Part shown: one piece after another, positions 736-19,994 of the stretch
How the letters are laid out: every line of letters begins with the position of its first letter
Numbering within the stretch: position 1 is the stretch's first letter
From: Lyophyllum atratum
Lineage: Eukaryota > Basidiomycota > Agaricomycetes > Agaricales > Lyophyllaceae
Direction: 5' to 3'
DNA length: 64,000 nt
Assembly (NCBI GenBank): GCA_014905825.1
Contig: JACGCN010000042.1
Span: 62,001 to 126,000, forward strand
The notes under the pieces: model-generated
The model's input: only the letters and a program-made list of their open reading frames with translations
The model's database searches: none
What the model was told of the DNA's origin: nothing
Translations under genes and position numbers: made by a program

Positions 736-1663
736 GTGTGTTGTGTAGTATAGTATTATTCTTATGTATGGTGTGTTCATGTTTAATGCTCAGCAGCGGT
801 CCCACACGCCAAAAAGACACGATCTTTTGACTAACCACGACAGAACACAATCGAGTAACATGGAGGGGAAGTTTGTATGGTGGATTTGCGTAGAAATTCC
901 AATTCTACATGTATTCTAGATTGCAGAACAAAAGAAATTGTCAAGATGATGGTTAGTATCCTGTTTCCACTTTTGTCAGTGTCATTACACAACATTGTGG
1001 CCCCAGAAACTTGAAGCTTGAGATTTTTGCGAGGAGAGAGTGGTCCCTCGTACATACGCCCGACCCCGGGGAACAGTATATCTGAGAGAAGCAAATAATC
1101 ATTTTGTACCTTTTTGTACTAATCGAGCCTCCACGAAGTTGTGATTGCTTCCATGTTCTAACGCACAGTTCTTCCTTCGCTTGACATTTCCTTCTATGTT
1201 TCATAAGTCGGGGCATCTGGATGTACTCTATGAATGTAATGTACGAATAACTCCCTCAGGCTCTTGATAGAGAACACGTCTTATCTTAATTCCGTTCTGA
1301 TAGGACCGTTCTCGTACGTAGAGCAGATTGTGTCACTTACTATCCGATGTAGACGCTGGTCCAGGTTTCCTGAAAGTATGTTTGCCGAAGAATCTACTGG
1401 ATTTCGATTCGATGACAGCTCCGCAGTCTATTAGCTGCCGGGAGTAATCCAGTCAGAGTCTGACTCAGACTCAGAGCTCCGAGGTCACTGGCAGTATTTT
1501 GCACAAGTAGCCGCATCTCACTTCTATGACTGTATTGACTCGACCGGGCCCAAGTAGAGCAATAGTTTGGTTTGAATCGAGAGGCCGCGGGGCTGTCTGG
1601 CCTGACATCGGATATCATGTAGTAGCAAATGCCAGGAGGCGCTAAGATTAACAACAATACATT
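736..1663. other. Intergenic, convergent gene ends
   Basis: This 0.9-kb gap lies between the carboxypeptidase stop and the cullin stop, so both flanking genes end here. Only short ORFs without recognisable motifs or splice continuity were seen. No repeat or RNA gene was recognised. Confidence 0.5.
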
Positions 1664-4580
1664 TCAAGCGACATAAAGGAATCTGTTCTTATCCTCCGAG
1701 CTCCTCTCCAAATAATCGGTCTCAACCAGTGCATCAATCCGCTTCTTGATAGCATCCACCGCCGGCACGAAATGATTCTTCACCGCCTCAATCGTGGCAG
1801 TCTTGAGCTGTTCATACGTCAGCTCCTTGCGCGCCTTCATGATCCGCACAATCGCAGCATCTAGGTAATGTTTCCTATCGCCCTCGATCGACTCGTTCGT
1901 CCTCTTCGATTCCTCCGGCTGCATCACATATCACGATCATGAGCCTTTGAGAAACATGAAGGCAGGAAGTAGCAACGCACGGAGACTTTCGCTTGAATGG
2001 AGTTGATGTGCACTTTCGGGCGTGGGTCTTCAAAGTTTACGTTGACCTGGAACACGTCCCTCTCATTGATGTCTCGTCCAGGTGGAATCTTCTTGAGCAC
2101 CTTCTTCTTTCCACACGCCAGACTCTGTAGGGTCCGCTTCAGCTCTCCCTCGTCTAGACATAACCAATCTTGTCAGCAAAAACGGTAAACAGAGCGAGAG
2201 GAGGGGCGAAGACTCAACCCATCCGCGTCTCCTCCAGAATGTCAGGATAGCGCCATTCTTCGGTGTCGTTGAAAAGGAGAAGAACGACGGCCTGGTACAA
2301 GCTGACCGAAAGCTCTTTGGTGCCAGGGCTGAACCGAGCTTTCAGCGTGGCCGTGCCAAGCGCGTGATCCCAGTCAAGGACGTGCCCAGAATGCCGCTCC
2401 TTGTAGTAATTCGCGTATGCCGTCAGTTCTTTCTGCATCTGCAGCGAAGCGTCAATAACTTTCGCAGGAATTTGGAGGAATTGATTTACACTGGGAGGCA
2501 AGTCGACAGTAGTCTTCTGGACGGTGAAAGGCCAGGCACTGCGTTGAAGGACCATGGCAGAAAGCTTGTGCCCTGCGCTACGACTATCCAGCCTCGAGTG
2601 GTATTCTCGGATCGACTCTCTTGAAAGGGCCAAATCCTTGAACATGTCCTCGCCCATCCCGAACTCCGGGTCGTATTCTATAGCCATCCATCATCTCAGG
2701 CCACGGCTAGAAGATAAACAACGTACCTTCCTTCAATTTCTTCAGCATCGCAGCCTCGAAATCATCAGACGCGCTCCTCTCAAGCAACAAGCGCTTCGCC
2801 AGCGATCGGTGGTAAAATGTCCTGAACACGTCCTTATCCTCCGTGAACCGGTACAGCGCCAGCACCGAATCAAGCAACGCCTGAAAGTCCGTATCACTGG
2901 TCGCGCCCTGGCCCCTGCGCATAGCGTGGTCAAGGTACTTCGCGATCATCTCCGCGGGTTTATTGCGGCGCGCCTTGAAGCCAATCGTGAACGCATCGCT
3001 GAGCGCATAGACGAAGTCGTTGTTCGGCTGTTTGTGAGTCACACTACTCGAACCCGCAGCAGTGGCAATGGGCTTCTCGTCGAGGAACGCAGTGGTGATG
3101 GCTTTGTCAGCCAGGCGCTTGAAGTCGAGCAGGCGCTGCACCATGTTGTCGTCATTGTTGGTGTCTTTGACGATGGCTTGAACTTGGGTCTACAGAAGCT
3201 TGGGCATGAGTACCGCGATATGGTGGGGGATTGAGTCATTTTACCTGGATATAGGCGCGGAAGGCGCTGACTAGCATCTTGACCCCACCCACTCGGGAGA
3301 AACGAGCGTACATGTTAGACAGAGTTTTGACGTTGCTCTCTACGTACGGACCGATGGCTGCAGAGAACGAGTTAGTGAAGTCGTAGTTTGACGAGGGTGT
3401 ACTTGCACGTACTCTCGTTAGCCAACCACTCTAGCCTCCCACCCCATATAGCCTGCTCCACGGTTTCCCGAACTATCGTCCAGCTTCCGATAGGCAGAAC
3501 ATCTTTCGCGCGCTGGACTTCCTCTTCAATCCGGATGTAGGCGTGTTTGAAGAATCCTTGAGCGTCCGCCTGCATGGACACGGACAGCTCCTCAGATTCC
3601 GTCGTGTAGTAGGCTTTGGTGATCTTGATGAAGTAGGCTTCGAATGAGGAGTATTGCTTGTGGGAGACCAAGTGCGCAACAAGTTTGGGGATCTCGGACC
3701 GAAGGTCATGTTCCAGGTGGAACTGTCTTTCATAGTTCGTCCACTCGAGGACACCAGTTCTGAGCCGTATCGCGATCTGAGGGTTCTCGAAGATCCTTGC
3801 GGCAAAGAGACCGAAGGCAAGTGATCTGGTACAAGAATGAGTGCGAGTTTAGCATGTATATGCAGAGGGGCAGATTTTACCTGATGTTGTTCGTTCCAGG
3901 ATTACTGACAACGTATACCTGATCCAAGTAAGTCAACAGGGATTTGAGCAGTGACTGCGCAACCTGTCAGCGGTGATGGAGAATAAGAAAACAGTGTCGC
4001 TCACGATCTGCTTCTCAAACCACCCGCAGGCTGCGACAAACTGTTCAATCCACTTCATGCTCTTGCCGTCCTCAACTTCCTCTGCCGTGAGGCTGCTCGC
4101 AAGACGGCCGACTGCTTGCTCTAATTCGATTTTCAGGGTCCCGTAAAGACCTTCGCCCTTGTTCGCGATACAGACCACGTAGCGACATGCAGAGTAAATG
4201 GATTCATAGGTCGCAGGAAGTCCTTCCACTGCATCCCGCGTCAAGATTGTTCGGATGCTCCGTCGAAGCAGACTGAAATGTGTATCCTCGTTGGTAGGTC
4301 TATGGGCTATGACCATCACGTCGAGTTTATCACAGTTGAGGCACAATATACTAAGAGCTCACGTACGCCAGTCTCCAATGACTTTGATTTTTATCGGACC
4401 TTGTACACGCGTTCGTTGGGATCTAGAAGCGGAGGCAGCGTCAGAGTCGACGTCCCTGCGGGCAGTCTTGCGACGAGGAGATGCCGACCCATCATCAAGT
4501 GTTTCTGTCACTGTGGGTCGTATAGACGCGAATGCATTAGAGGTCTTGGGCAACGTTAGAAGTGTAAAAACATCGGTCAT
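1664..4580 (-). CDS. cul4: Cullin-4, scaffold of a CRL4 ubiquitin ligase
   Basis: This multi-exon gene is read right to left, with ATG at 4580 (MTDVFTLLTLPK). Cullins hold a RING protein (Rbx1) at the C-terminus and a substrate adaptor (DDB1 for Cul4) at the N-terminus. Visible parts are a basic, low-complexity N-terminus, cullin repeats in exons between 4346 and 3372 (WTIVRETVEQAIWGGRLEWL), the cullin homology domain between 3144 and 2214 (FRTFYHRSLAKRLLLERSA, with ALGTATLKARF further on), and a last exon 1927-1664 with the winged-helix neddylation segment. That segment contains DAAIVRIMKARKEL, where the Lys is the expected NEDD8 site, and ends in RFLYVA. The end pattern fits Cul4 better than Cul1 or Cul3. 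The gene looks intact. Its start codon is about 185 bp from the 3' end of a LINE inserted on the same strand. Confidence 0.88.
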
Positions 4581-17452: not shown

Positions 17453-18329
17453 GCCGGTATGGTAGAGTCTAGATTGGCATACGTATACAGATTGGGATGA
17501 CGCAAGAAAGGGTAAATAACAGCTGATGGAGAAGGGAAGATCGTGCCGATGGCGTTTACAACATAGTTATATAGGGAGCCAGGGCAGGGAAAAACATAAA
17601 TGTAAGCAGGGAGGAATTGTTCCCGCATCCTTCCCTAGAGCAACGGCGCGCGAGCAGACGGGCCGAGAAAGGTACGCGCGTTGAACGGTGTTCAGGTTGC
17701 GGGGAAGACGGCGATGATGGCGGTGTGCAGCGGTGATGATAGAGAATGATGGTAAGAACAGCAGATAAGCAAGATGAGCAACGGAATCGGAACGATCATA
17801 CGGAACGATCGAACTTGGGTAGGAGGTTTTGGGCGTCCTGACAATGAATACTGGGCCCTCGATTGGACCCTGACGCGAAGACGTCACGAATATAGGGGCG
17901 ACGGGGAACTTCATAGCATGATAGTCCGTATCTAATTTCATAAGCGAGCGTCAATATCTTTCTGGGCACCACGAATGATTGTGGCATCAACTCACGTTTT
18001 TGCTCACGATCGCACTGAAGCCGCAGTTCCGGTAAGGGGTTGAATCAAGCAATGCATTGGATTGTTCGATGCGGGGCGCGCAGAGAAGGTGACGGGGTTG
18101 CGATTGGAAGCAGATAAATGTATCGTCAATGGAAGAGGGAAAACAGGACATCATGAGCATTCTGGATATCGTCTCGGAAGCCACGTGGAAGCAAATGAAA
18201 AGCAATGAAAGAGCAGACAAAATAGAAGAACCCAAGGGTGGGAACGTGGATAGTAGTAGATGGTGTGATAAATATAGTTTGATGAAACACGGAATGCGGA
18301 TATATCGGAGCGCACAGGTAGGGGGAGGG
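17453..18329. other. Region downstream of the Galpha gene
   Basis: On the minus strand this follows the inferred Galpha stop codon at 18332-18330. ORFs on both strands lack motifs. It probably holds the Galpha 3' UTR; nothing else was recognised. Confidence 0.35.
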
Positions 18330-19994
18330 CTATATGAGAGCCGCCACCTCAAGATTCGTGCGAAGGACGATGCTAGCGTGAGGCGAAGAGAGGCCATTAA
18401 GCGTACGGTTGGCGGAACAAAGGACGACGAGCACAAAAGGGTGGGGGAAAGGATAAGAAAATAAAAACTCACTCTGTGAAGTCAAGTCAGCATTCGGAAG
18501 TTACGTCAAGAAGTCAAGAAGTTGACGGACCTTCAACTGCAGCCATTACAACCCGTAGCATAGCGGTATCGGTGGCCGTCGTTATACTACGAGCGCCGTT
18601 AGTTCACCGGGGAATAGGTAGCACAAATTGGATCGAAAGCGTACTGAATGTAGATTTCTCTCTCTTTCGATCTGCCGGCCTTCTGTGCCAACTTCGCAAA
18701 CCTGCGCTTGAAGTAATCACGTCCTGCACGGATATCGCCTGATTCTCCTTCGAAATCCTGGAACCGTCTTAAGTCTCATGAAAACGCCAAGGATGAGAGA
18801 CCTACTGGGAAGAAGTTCTTAATATCTGACGTTGGAATCTTTTTCTCGAAAAGGTCGTTTTTGTTCAAGAACAAAATCTGTCAAGGAAGATGAGCTGATC
18901 TTGTCCGACGTTCGGCATATGAATAACGGACAATCGAAGTCTGCTTGAACCACTGTGAATGACATATTGAATCCCAGATGGTCATTGCGTCTTGCATTTG
19001 GTTCTGACCAAGGCGAATGTAAGTTTGAGCCACGGATACAATAAAATATACGGACCGCATCCCGATCCTCAACAAGGCACTGATCATATCCACTCAAGCT
19101 GACCAAAAACAGGATACTCGTCACATCCTGGAAGCAATGTATCCATTTCCGCCGCTCGCTCTTCTGCCCACCCACGTCCACCATTAGCATCTCATGGTCG
19201 CGAAGCGTAAATGTCGTCTCTGTGATACCGATCGTCCTCGCCCTGCAGCGGATGATATCCTGCTCCACTGGAACATACGCAGGGTCGAATAGCCGATCTA
19301 GCGACGAGAAAAAGTATAGCAGGCTAGAGGATTGTCAGGACAAAAAGAAGCGCCAGGGCAGGGTTCGCAACGTACTTTTCAGGGAGGGCAGCCTCATTTC
19401 CTCGCTCCCACGCTTTTTGGACATTGGGGTCTTCCCAGAGGGACTTGAGGGGCTCGTAGTATGACAAGGGGAAAGCCTCTCCGTCACGGAGATCTGTAGC
19501 GTTTTCGATGAGGTCTAGATATGGTATGTTGTCTTCTGCCACCTTGAGCTCCATGTCCTCCATTGCGTCGAGAAGGTACTTCATCCCTCGGGTTAGGTTG
19601 TCGAATGTTAGTTGTCGGTAGGATTCGATCTCTTGTGTCGAGAACGGTAGTTTGTGTATCAGTCGCATTTGCTGTTGCTGCTCAGCTAGTGCGATGGATG
19701 CAGATAACGCTACTCACTTTGAGAATCGTCGACTTTCCAGAGTCTCCGGATCCCAAGAGAAGTACCTGGGGCCAACCATGTGGTCAAATTCTTCAGACGG
19801 GCAATAGACAACATACTTTGACCTGAGTCGCCAACTTAGCTTTCGCCTGCGCAGACCATCAGCATCAACAAGAGCCGCATGGAAATAGCTCGCTCAAGAC
19901 GCACCTCTTTCAGCTGCTTCTCCGCCTCCCTATGCATGTTCTTGTCGAGCTCAGTGACCTCGGCACCTGCAGGCGATGACATACAGGACCCCAT
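18330..19994 (-). CDS. Heterotrimeric G protein alpha subunit
   Basis: A GTP-binding switch that couples 7-TM receptors to downstream signalling. ATG at 19994 gives MGSCMSSPAGAEVTELDKNM, with Gly2 for myristoylation and Cys4 for palmitoylation. Motifs in order: P-loop LLLGSGDSGKST (Asp where Glu is usual), switch I RCRARTIGITETTF, switch II MLMVDVGGQKSERRKWIHCF, FLNKNDLFEKK (NKxD), DYFKRRFAKLAQKAG, and EIYIHITTATDT (TCAT box). After VVMAAVE the reading frame fails unless the next Asp codon is assembled as G (18531), A (18473) and C (18372). This gives DIVLRTNLEVAALI and TAG at 18332-18330, exactly the usual C-terminal length. The terminal helix contacts receptors, so the splice matters for function. 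The C-terminal ALI lacks the Cys targeted by pertussis toxin. Subclass not resolved. Confidence 0.9.
18473..18473 (-). other. Inferred single-nucleotide exon (A) in the Galpha gene
   Basis: On the minus strand, exon ...GTTGAAG ends at 18531. A 57-nt intron (18530-18474) runs from GTCCGT to TTCACAG. The single A at 18473 is followed at once by GTGAGT, which opens a 100-nt intron (18472-18373) ending CACGCTAG. The last exon starts CATCGTCC. G+A+C makes the Asp conserved at this point in Galpha. Inferred from sequence only. Confidence 0.6.

Follow-up and report, generated by a model that had tools for sequence, protein, structure and literature searches.

A predicted one-nucleotide exon in a mushroom Gα gene, with two alternative receptor-coupling tails predicted behind its donor site

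We analyzed a 64,000-nucleotide stretch of the genome of the agaricomycete Lyophyllum atratum (assembly GCA_014905825.1, contig JACGCN010000042.1, positions 62,001 to 126,000; hereafter, the window), which contains, on the minus strand (19994-18330), a gene for a G protein α subunit (Gα). We conclude that a single A at position 18473 is almost certainly an exon of one nucleotide, which would complete the codon of the aspartate (Asp) that is conserved in Gα proteins. It is also very probable, judging from the sequence, that the donor site of this exon is joined alternatively to near or to distal tail exons, so that one gene would give rise to two receptor-coupling tails (tail A and tail B). In Gα, it is the residues following this Asp in helix α5 that insert into the receptor. 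The body of the protein would be constant, with two endings offered behind one base.

The identity of the gene is supported by the G-alpha domain PF00503, found at the locus with 132.2 bits against a cut-off of 48.8 (4.8e-37), and by a phmmer comparison to PDB, in which the matches were Gαq and Gαi chains (best E 1e-85), Gαq chains being the best solved relatives; several relatives carry the NCBI name GPA2-like. Eight ordinary introns of 46-58 bases (b) precede the region of the one-base exon. With tail A, the gene model has 11 exons and a coding sequence of 1089 b, encoding 362 amino acids (aa) with the end ATDT-AMLRVVMAAVEDIVLRTNLEVAALI. The model contains helix α5 with the conserved Asp, and the number of residues after ATDT is 25 with tail A and 24 with tail B; the first-pass annotation had counted 25 residues with Asp at the conserved place, which the 362-aa model bears out. 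In both of the PDB alignments shown, the Asp preceding tail A pairs with that of Gαq. It should be noted that the donor GTCCGT of intron 9 recurs at introns 5 and 6 of the same gene, and that a splice-site matrix built from the eight introns is too small for judging acceptors. The features, as predicted, are as follows.

18587-19994, minus strand: Gα body, exons 1-8 with introns 1-8 (open 362-aa model, PF00503, phmmer)
19994-19905, 19846-19817, 19765-19718 and 19671-19376, minus strand: exons 1-4
19323-19056, 19003-18932, 18877-18806 and 18757-18645, minus strand: exons 5-8, with intron 8 ending at 18587
18531-18586, minus strand: exon 9, ending in VVMAAVE plus G, the first base of the Asp codon (last bases GTTGAAG)
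18474-18530, minus strand: intron 9, GTCCGT...TTCACAG, 57 b, with a CTGAC branch-like site and 0/57 allele differences
18473, minus strand: putative exon 10, a lone A that provides the middle base of the Asp codon, in the context CAG|A|GTGAGT
18373-18472, minus strand: intron 10, proximal choice, GTGAGT...CACGCTAG, 100 b, with 10/100 allele differences and both splice sites kept
18330-18372, minus strand: exon Y, tail A, starting CATCGTC and read as C-ATC..., that is, IVLRTNLEVAALI-stop; this kind of tail is present in 41/69 transcript-like relatives
18015-18472, minus strand: intron 10, distal choice, GTGAGT...CTTCAG, 458 b, spanning exon Y
17996-18014, minus strand: first tail-B exon, with 0/19 allele differences; this kind of tail is present in 28/69 transcript-like relatives
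17932-17995, minus strand: stretch between the two tail-B exons, with the acceptor ATCAG in the second allele
17911-17931, minus strand: second tail-B exon, with 0/21 allele differences

The last bases of exon 9 are followed in the DNA by G, not A, and the base before exon Y is also G; because neither side of the junction offers an A, the Asp codon cannot be formed with one intron of any kind. We enumerated GT-AG introns of at least 20 b, singly and paired (window allele, 268 candidates; second allele, described below, 257), with the pairs limited to those whose first donor falls between 20 and 120 b from the start of the exon-9 stretch. No single intron yielded VED followed by tail A, whereas exactly one pair, in both alleles, yielded VED-IVLRTNLEVAALI, leaving the single A at 18473. 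There was still one path to tail A when GT, GC and AT donors were combined with AG and AC acceptors (2835 candidates in the window allele and 2806 in the second). The same A is required for tail B, which is encoded approximately 315 b farther downstream, at 18014-17996 and 17931-17911, and it lies on the only GT-AG route to VED-AIVSKNIRTIML in both alleles. The two tails are encoded in order behind one donor, as two alternative sets of last exons in one gene. The predicted exon is flanked by an acceptor and a donor, and both the reading frame and the conserved Asp depend on it. The site is more than chance would give: in the 159-b intron stretch, AGNGT occurs once, and AGAGTRAGT appeared in none of 5000 base shuffles of this stretch. 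The first-pass annotation had given the sequence and coordinates of both introns, the single A and the last exon as we find them, and had read the Asp codon as G|A|C from three exons; no other GT-AG route to the conserved Asp was found in either allele. Its account of the one-base exon holds; as a reading of the gene it was incomplete, since the second tail on the same base was overlooked.

The 64.8-Mb assembly includes two copies of the Gα locus (C89 and C60). The C60 copy has Val where the window has Ile and, because a Lyophyllum atratum protein (P0001) shares this Val, the window copy and the C60 copy are taken to be two alleles of one species. All GT and AG pairs of the gene are kept in both alleles. 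There is no difference between the alleles in the 83 bases of the tail exons (A and B together), compared to 22/419 in introns 1-8; the values are 0/57 for intron 9, 10/100 for intron 10 and 0/43 for exon Y. As a separate observation, the stretch between the two sets of tail exons (18329-18015) is nearly identical in the two alleles, with 2/315 differences, again compared to 22/419; it may contain the 3' untranslated region of tail A or signals for the choice of tail.

Three protein searches (the best 120 of 1341, 120 of 184 and 120 of 209 matches) gave 171 different proteins. This evidence consists of protein records. The proteins were divided by source into 69 transcript-like proteins (jgi, lgn and ena; contigs of 1109-3167 b) and 102 annotations (ncbi, uniref and nr). 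In 41 of the 69 cases, even the longest contig falls short of 1665 b, the length of the intron-bearing gene in the window, so these are taken as spliced RNA, and the other 28 are so taken by likeness. One Flammulina protein, P0019 (nr only, no contig), was counted with the annotations because the Flammulina Gα genes, four in number, are described as identified in the genome in the available part of the paper on them; the link of P0019 to this paper is assumed. All 69 transcript-like proteins have VED followed by a tail, which is tail A in 41 cases and tail B in 28 (including P0040, one residue short); the conserved Asp is thus present in every one of them. One of the searches did not target the tail; among its 120 listed matches, 55 were transcript-like, and VED was found in 55/55.

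Conversely, VED with either tail is found in none of the 102 genome annotations. Thirty of them end in VEE, including those of Grifola (Polyporales), Bondarzewia (Russulales) and Punctularia (Corticiales); in the window gene, VEE-stop results from removal of intron 9 with continued reading at CAG|A|GTGA. Three annotations end in VEG, and in 29 VEG is followed by other letters, as expected from read-through of intron 9. VEG is followed by a tail of exact length in 14 (A in 3, B in 11) and by an off-length tail in 11; another letter or an insert precedes tail A in five. Other endings are found in seven, among them P0138, with VED followed by letters of neither tail. The motif was not matched in three, of which two end earlier and P0168 has TAVEG with a tail-A-like end. 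The Gly of the 14 exact-length forms is the letter to be expected if the A of an aligned transcript had been laid over the first G of intron 9, and this, together with the VEE-stop group, points to the same arrangement in many genomes, which by name are mostly of Agaricales. The one-base exon is likely to be conserved across Agaricomycetes, in which case the arrangement would be common to them and old. We also observed that the annotation of the C60 allele (L009, P0001) ends in VEGPSTS-stop, i.e., intron 9 is read through and the receptor-binding end is missing.

The two tails could be isoforms of one gene or could differ between lineages. According to the latter explanation, the one-base exon exists, but L. 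atratum uses tail A alone and the tail-B exons are a remnant; our reading of the L. atratum tails comes from DNA, and particular lineages may have lost one tail. To compare these possibilities, a tree was built by a quick method from the bodies of 95 of the 99 tail-bearing proteins, with the tail left out and four bodies of 300 residues or less dropped. The tail label changes 28 times on this tree, compared to approximately 31 times with shuffled labels, and 79 to 95 of 500 shuffles were as low; the starred branches force at least 12 changes. Close relatives with different tails were also found. For example, P0127 (B) and P0158 (A), both transcript-like, have 365/379 identical residues in their bodies, and the Suillus fuscotomentosus annotation P0076 (A) matches the transcript-like P0098 (B) at 334/337. 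Likewise, Mycena olivaceomarginata P0132 (B) and P0160 (A) are identical at 289/292 aligned residues, and the transcript-like P0072 (A) and the Lactarius tabidus annotation P0149 (partial B end) at 326/326. It should be noted that the records were clustered at 90% identity, which hides pairs within a species, and that the pairs with different tails are not tied to one individual. Near-shuffled tails and close pairs that differ in tail fit random sampling of two isoforms rather than lineage-specific tails, and we give exclusive use of tail A only a slender chance.

Two further observations concern the same proteins. Armillaria solidipes P0077 and P0079 are identical at 324/360 residues, yet the end of one resembles tail B and that of the other tail A; they may be a duplicate pair that parted the tails. 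In Mycena and near relatives the body is longer up to ATDT (392 residues in P0126, 379 in P0127, 385 in P0129 and 379 in P0158) than in the window gene (337). In the predicted structures of the protein P0002 and the tail-B protein P0011, α5 is helical but pLDDT is below 50 over the tails, and no inference was drawn from them; the comparison of P0011 to PDB gave no match at a threshold of 1e-84, which is too strict a cut-off.

Another explanation is that intron 9 alone is removed and that the real product is a truncated Gα, ending in VEE and lacking the receptor-binding end. Thirty annotations end in exactly this way, and retention of intron 10 would yield VEE. However, not one of the 55 transcript-like proteins from the search not aimed at the tail ends in VEE, and the tail exons are unchanged (0/83) between alleles that differ at 22/419 positions in introns 1-8. 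We consider this explanation very unlikely. Alternatively, one ordinary intron with another junction could dispense with the one-base exon, either through the GTCAAC donor, giving VEGPIVLR, or through a merged intron, giving VEG plus a tail. The first-pass annotation had named VEE-stop, from the first intron alone, and VEGPIVLR as poor alternatives, and we reproduced both. The VEG annotations with a tail of exact length (14/102) or off length (11/102) speak for a single intron; nevertheless, even with GC and AT donors and AC acceptors allowed beside GT and AG, there is no single intron in the window allele or the second allele that leads to VED plus tail A or tail B, whereas the Asp is present in 69/69 transcript-like relatives and is aligned with that of Gαq in both PDB alignments shown, which makes this explanation highly improbable. 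A stwintron, in which one intron is nested in a splice motif of another and both are removed in two steps with no exon between them, would also account for two consecutive excisions at one place, and such twin introns occur in fungi, but there is hardly a case for it here, as the donors GTCCGT and GTGAGT are both whole, both acceptors are contiguous, and the only path found leaves one base in the mRNA. A zero-nucleotide recursive splice site has AG directly followed by GT, with nothing kept; it is ruled out, since an A is kept between AG and GT. The one-base exon may have arisen when an intron was inserted a single base upstream of a pre-existing donor.

For the one-base exon, the following course of splicing may be proposed. 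Introns 9 and 10 would be excised sequentially, since it is hard to see how a single base could be shared by two spliceosomes; the same argument was put forward for the exon in Arabidopsis. Either order of splicing is possible, the donor reading AGA|GTGAGT whether intron 9 is still in place or already gone. The choice between the acceptors at 18373 and 18015 would set tail A or tail B, and retention of intron 10 would lead to a protein ending in VEE, without the receptor-binding half of helix α5. With modest confidence, we lean toward a broader model for Agaricomycetes as a whole, in which the one-nucleotide exon is kept as an obligatory splicing joint that finishes the Asp in the middle of α5 and leads into either of two receptor-recognition cassettes, which exclude each other; one Gα would thereby be re-addressed between sets of receptors, and VEE-stop would be the receptor-uncoupled off state.

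One-nucleotide exons themselves are already known. In plants, they are described for APC11 in Arabidopsis and for APC11 and VPS55 across land plants (PMC4674806, PMC8831610). As predicted for the Gα gene, one coding base lies between AG and GT and was overlooked in reference annotations; the plant base is conserved among land plants. The difference is that annotations missing the plant exons give altered N-terminal peptides and that VPS55 can lose its exon by intron retention (PMC4674806, PMC8831610), whereas the Gα base is close to the C-terminus, with a choice of two exon sets after its donor. Fusarium CYP621A (PMC12940212) is also fungal, and its base is likewise the middle one of a conserved codon (Gly of PKG, compared to Asp in Gα) and is needed to join phases; it is an ascomycete P450 with the base G, confirmed by SRA reads, whereas the Gα is from a basidiomycete, with the base A and two downstream choices, and is known from DNA. 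The first-pass annotation had called one-nucleotide exons very rare, with one plant gene reported; a plant case does exist, yet a single gene is too few, given the nuclear exons of APC11, VPS55 and CYP621A. There are also papers on one-base exons in mitochondria (PMC5436844, PMC12308204).

Two other systems resemble parts of the arrangement. Human GNAO1, in the accessible part of PMC7599900, produces two C-termini (GαoA and GαoB) from one Gα gene by alternating its two last exons, which are duplicated, with no one-base exon mentioned there; in the mushroom Gα, only the 12-13 residues after the α5 Asp would be swapped, and the tails are strongly different. Stwintrons, according to the excerpt of PMC5639578, share with the Gα gene two introns at one place and obligatory sequential removal, but a splice motif is interrupted there, whereas the Gα motifs are whole and one base would be retained as an exon. 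Neither a one-base exon in a Gα nor an alternative Gα tail in fungi was found in the open-access literature, judged in part from titles and the first lines of abstracts, and a paper on splicing in Coprinopsis makes no mention of a G protein, a microexon, or mutually exclusive or alternative last exons. What appears to be new, within the open-access papers searched and the parts of them available, is a one-base exon at the hub of alternative receptor tails. If our prediction is correct, the smallest possible exon would, to our knowledge, sit where a regulated choice is made, in a protein central to mushroom signaling. The handling of a one-base exon by the spliceosome becomes testable, as does the retargeting of a fungal Gα to different receptors by splicing, as in animal Gαo. 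All 102 annotations of this protein examined would then be wrong or truncated where the receptor binds, and work that relies on them would use defective models.

A second Gα gene, L003 (G000:C71:83703-84758, with its allele L004 on C108), was observed at a distance of approximately 5 kb from the L001 Gα. Downstream of the exon with ATDT, inspection by eye reveals solely a possible short exon ending in VFDLIR-stop; the C-terminus of this gene may also be split by unusual exons.
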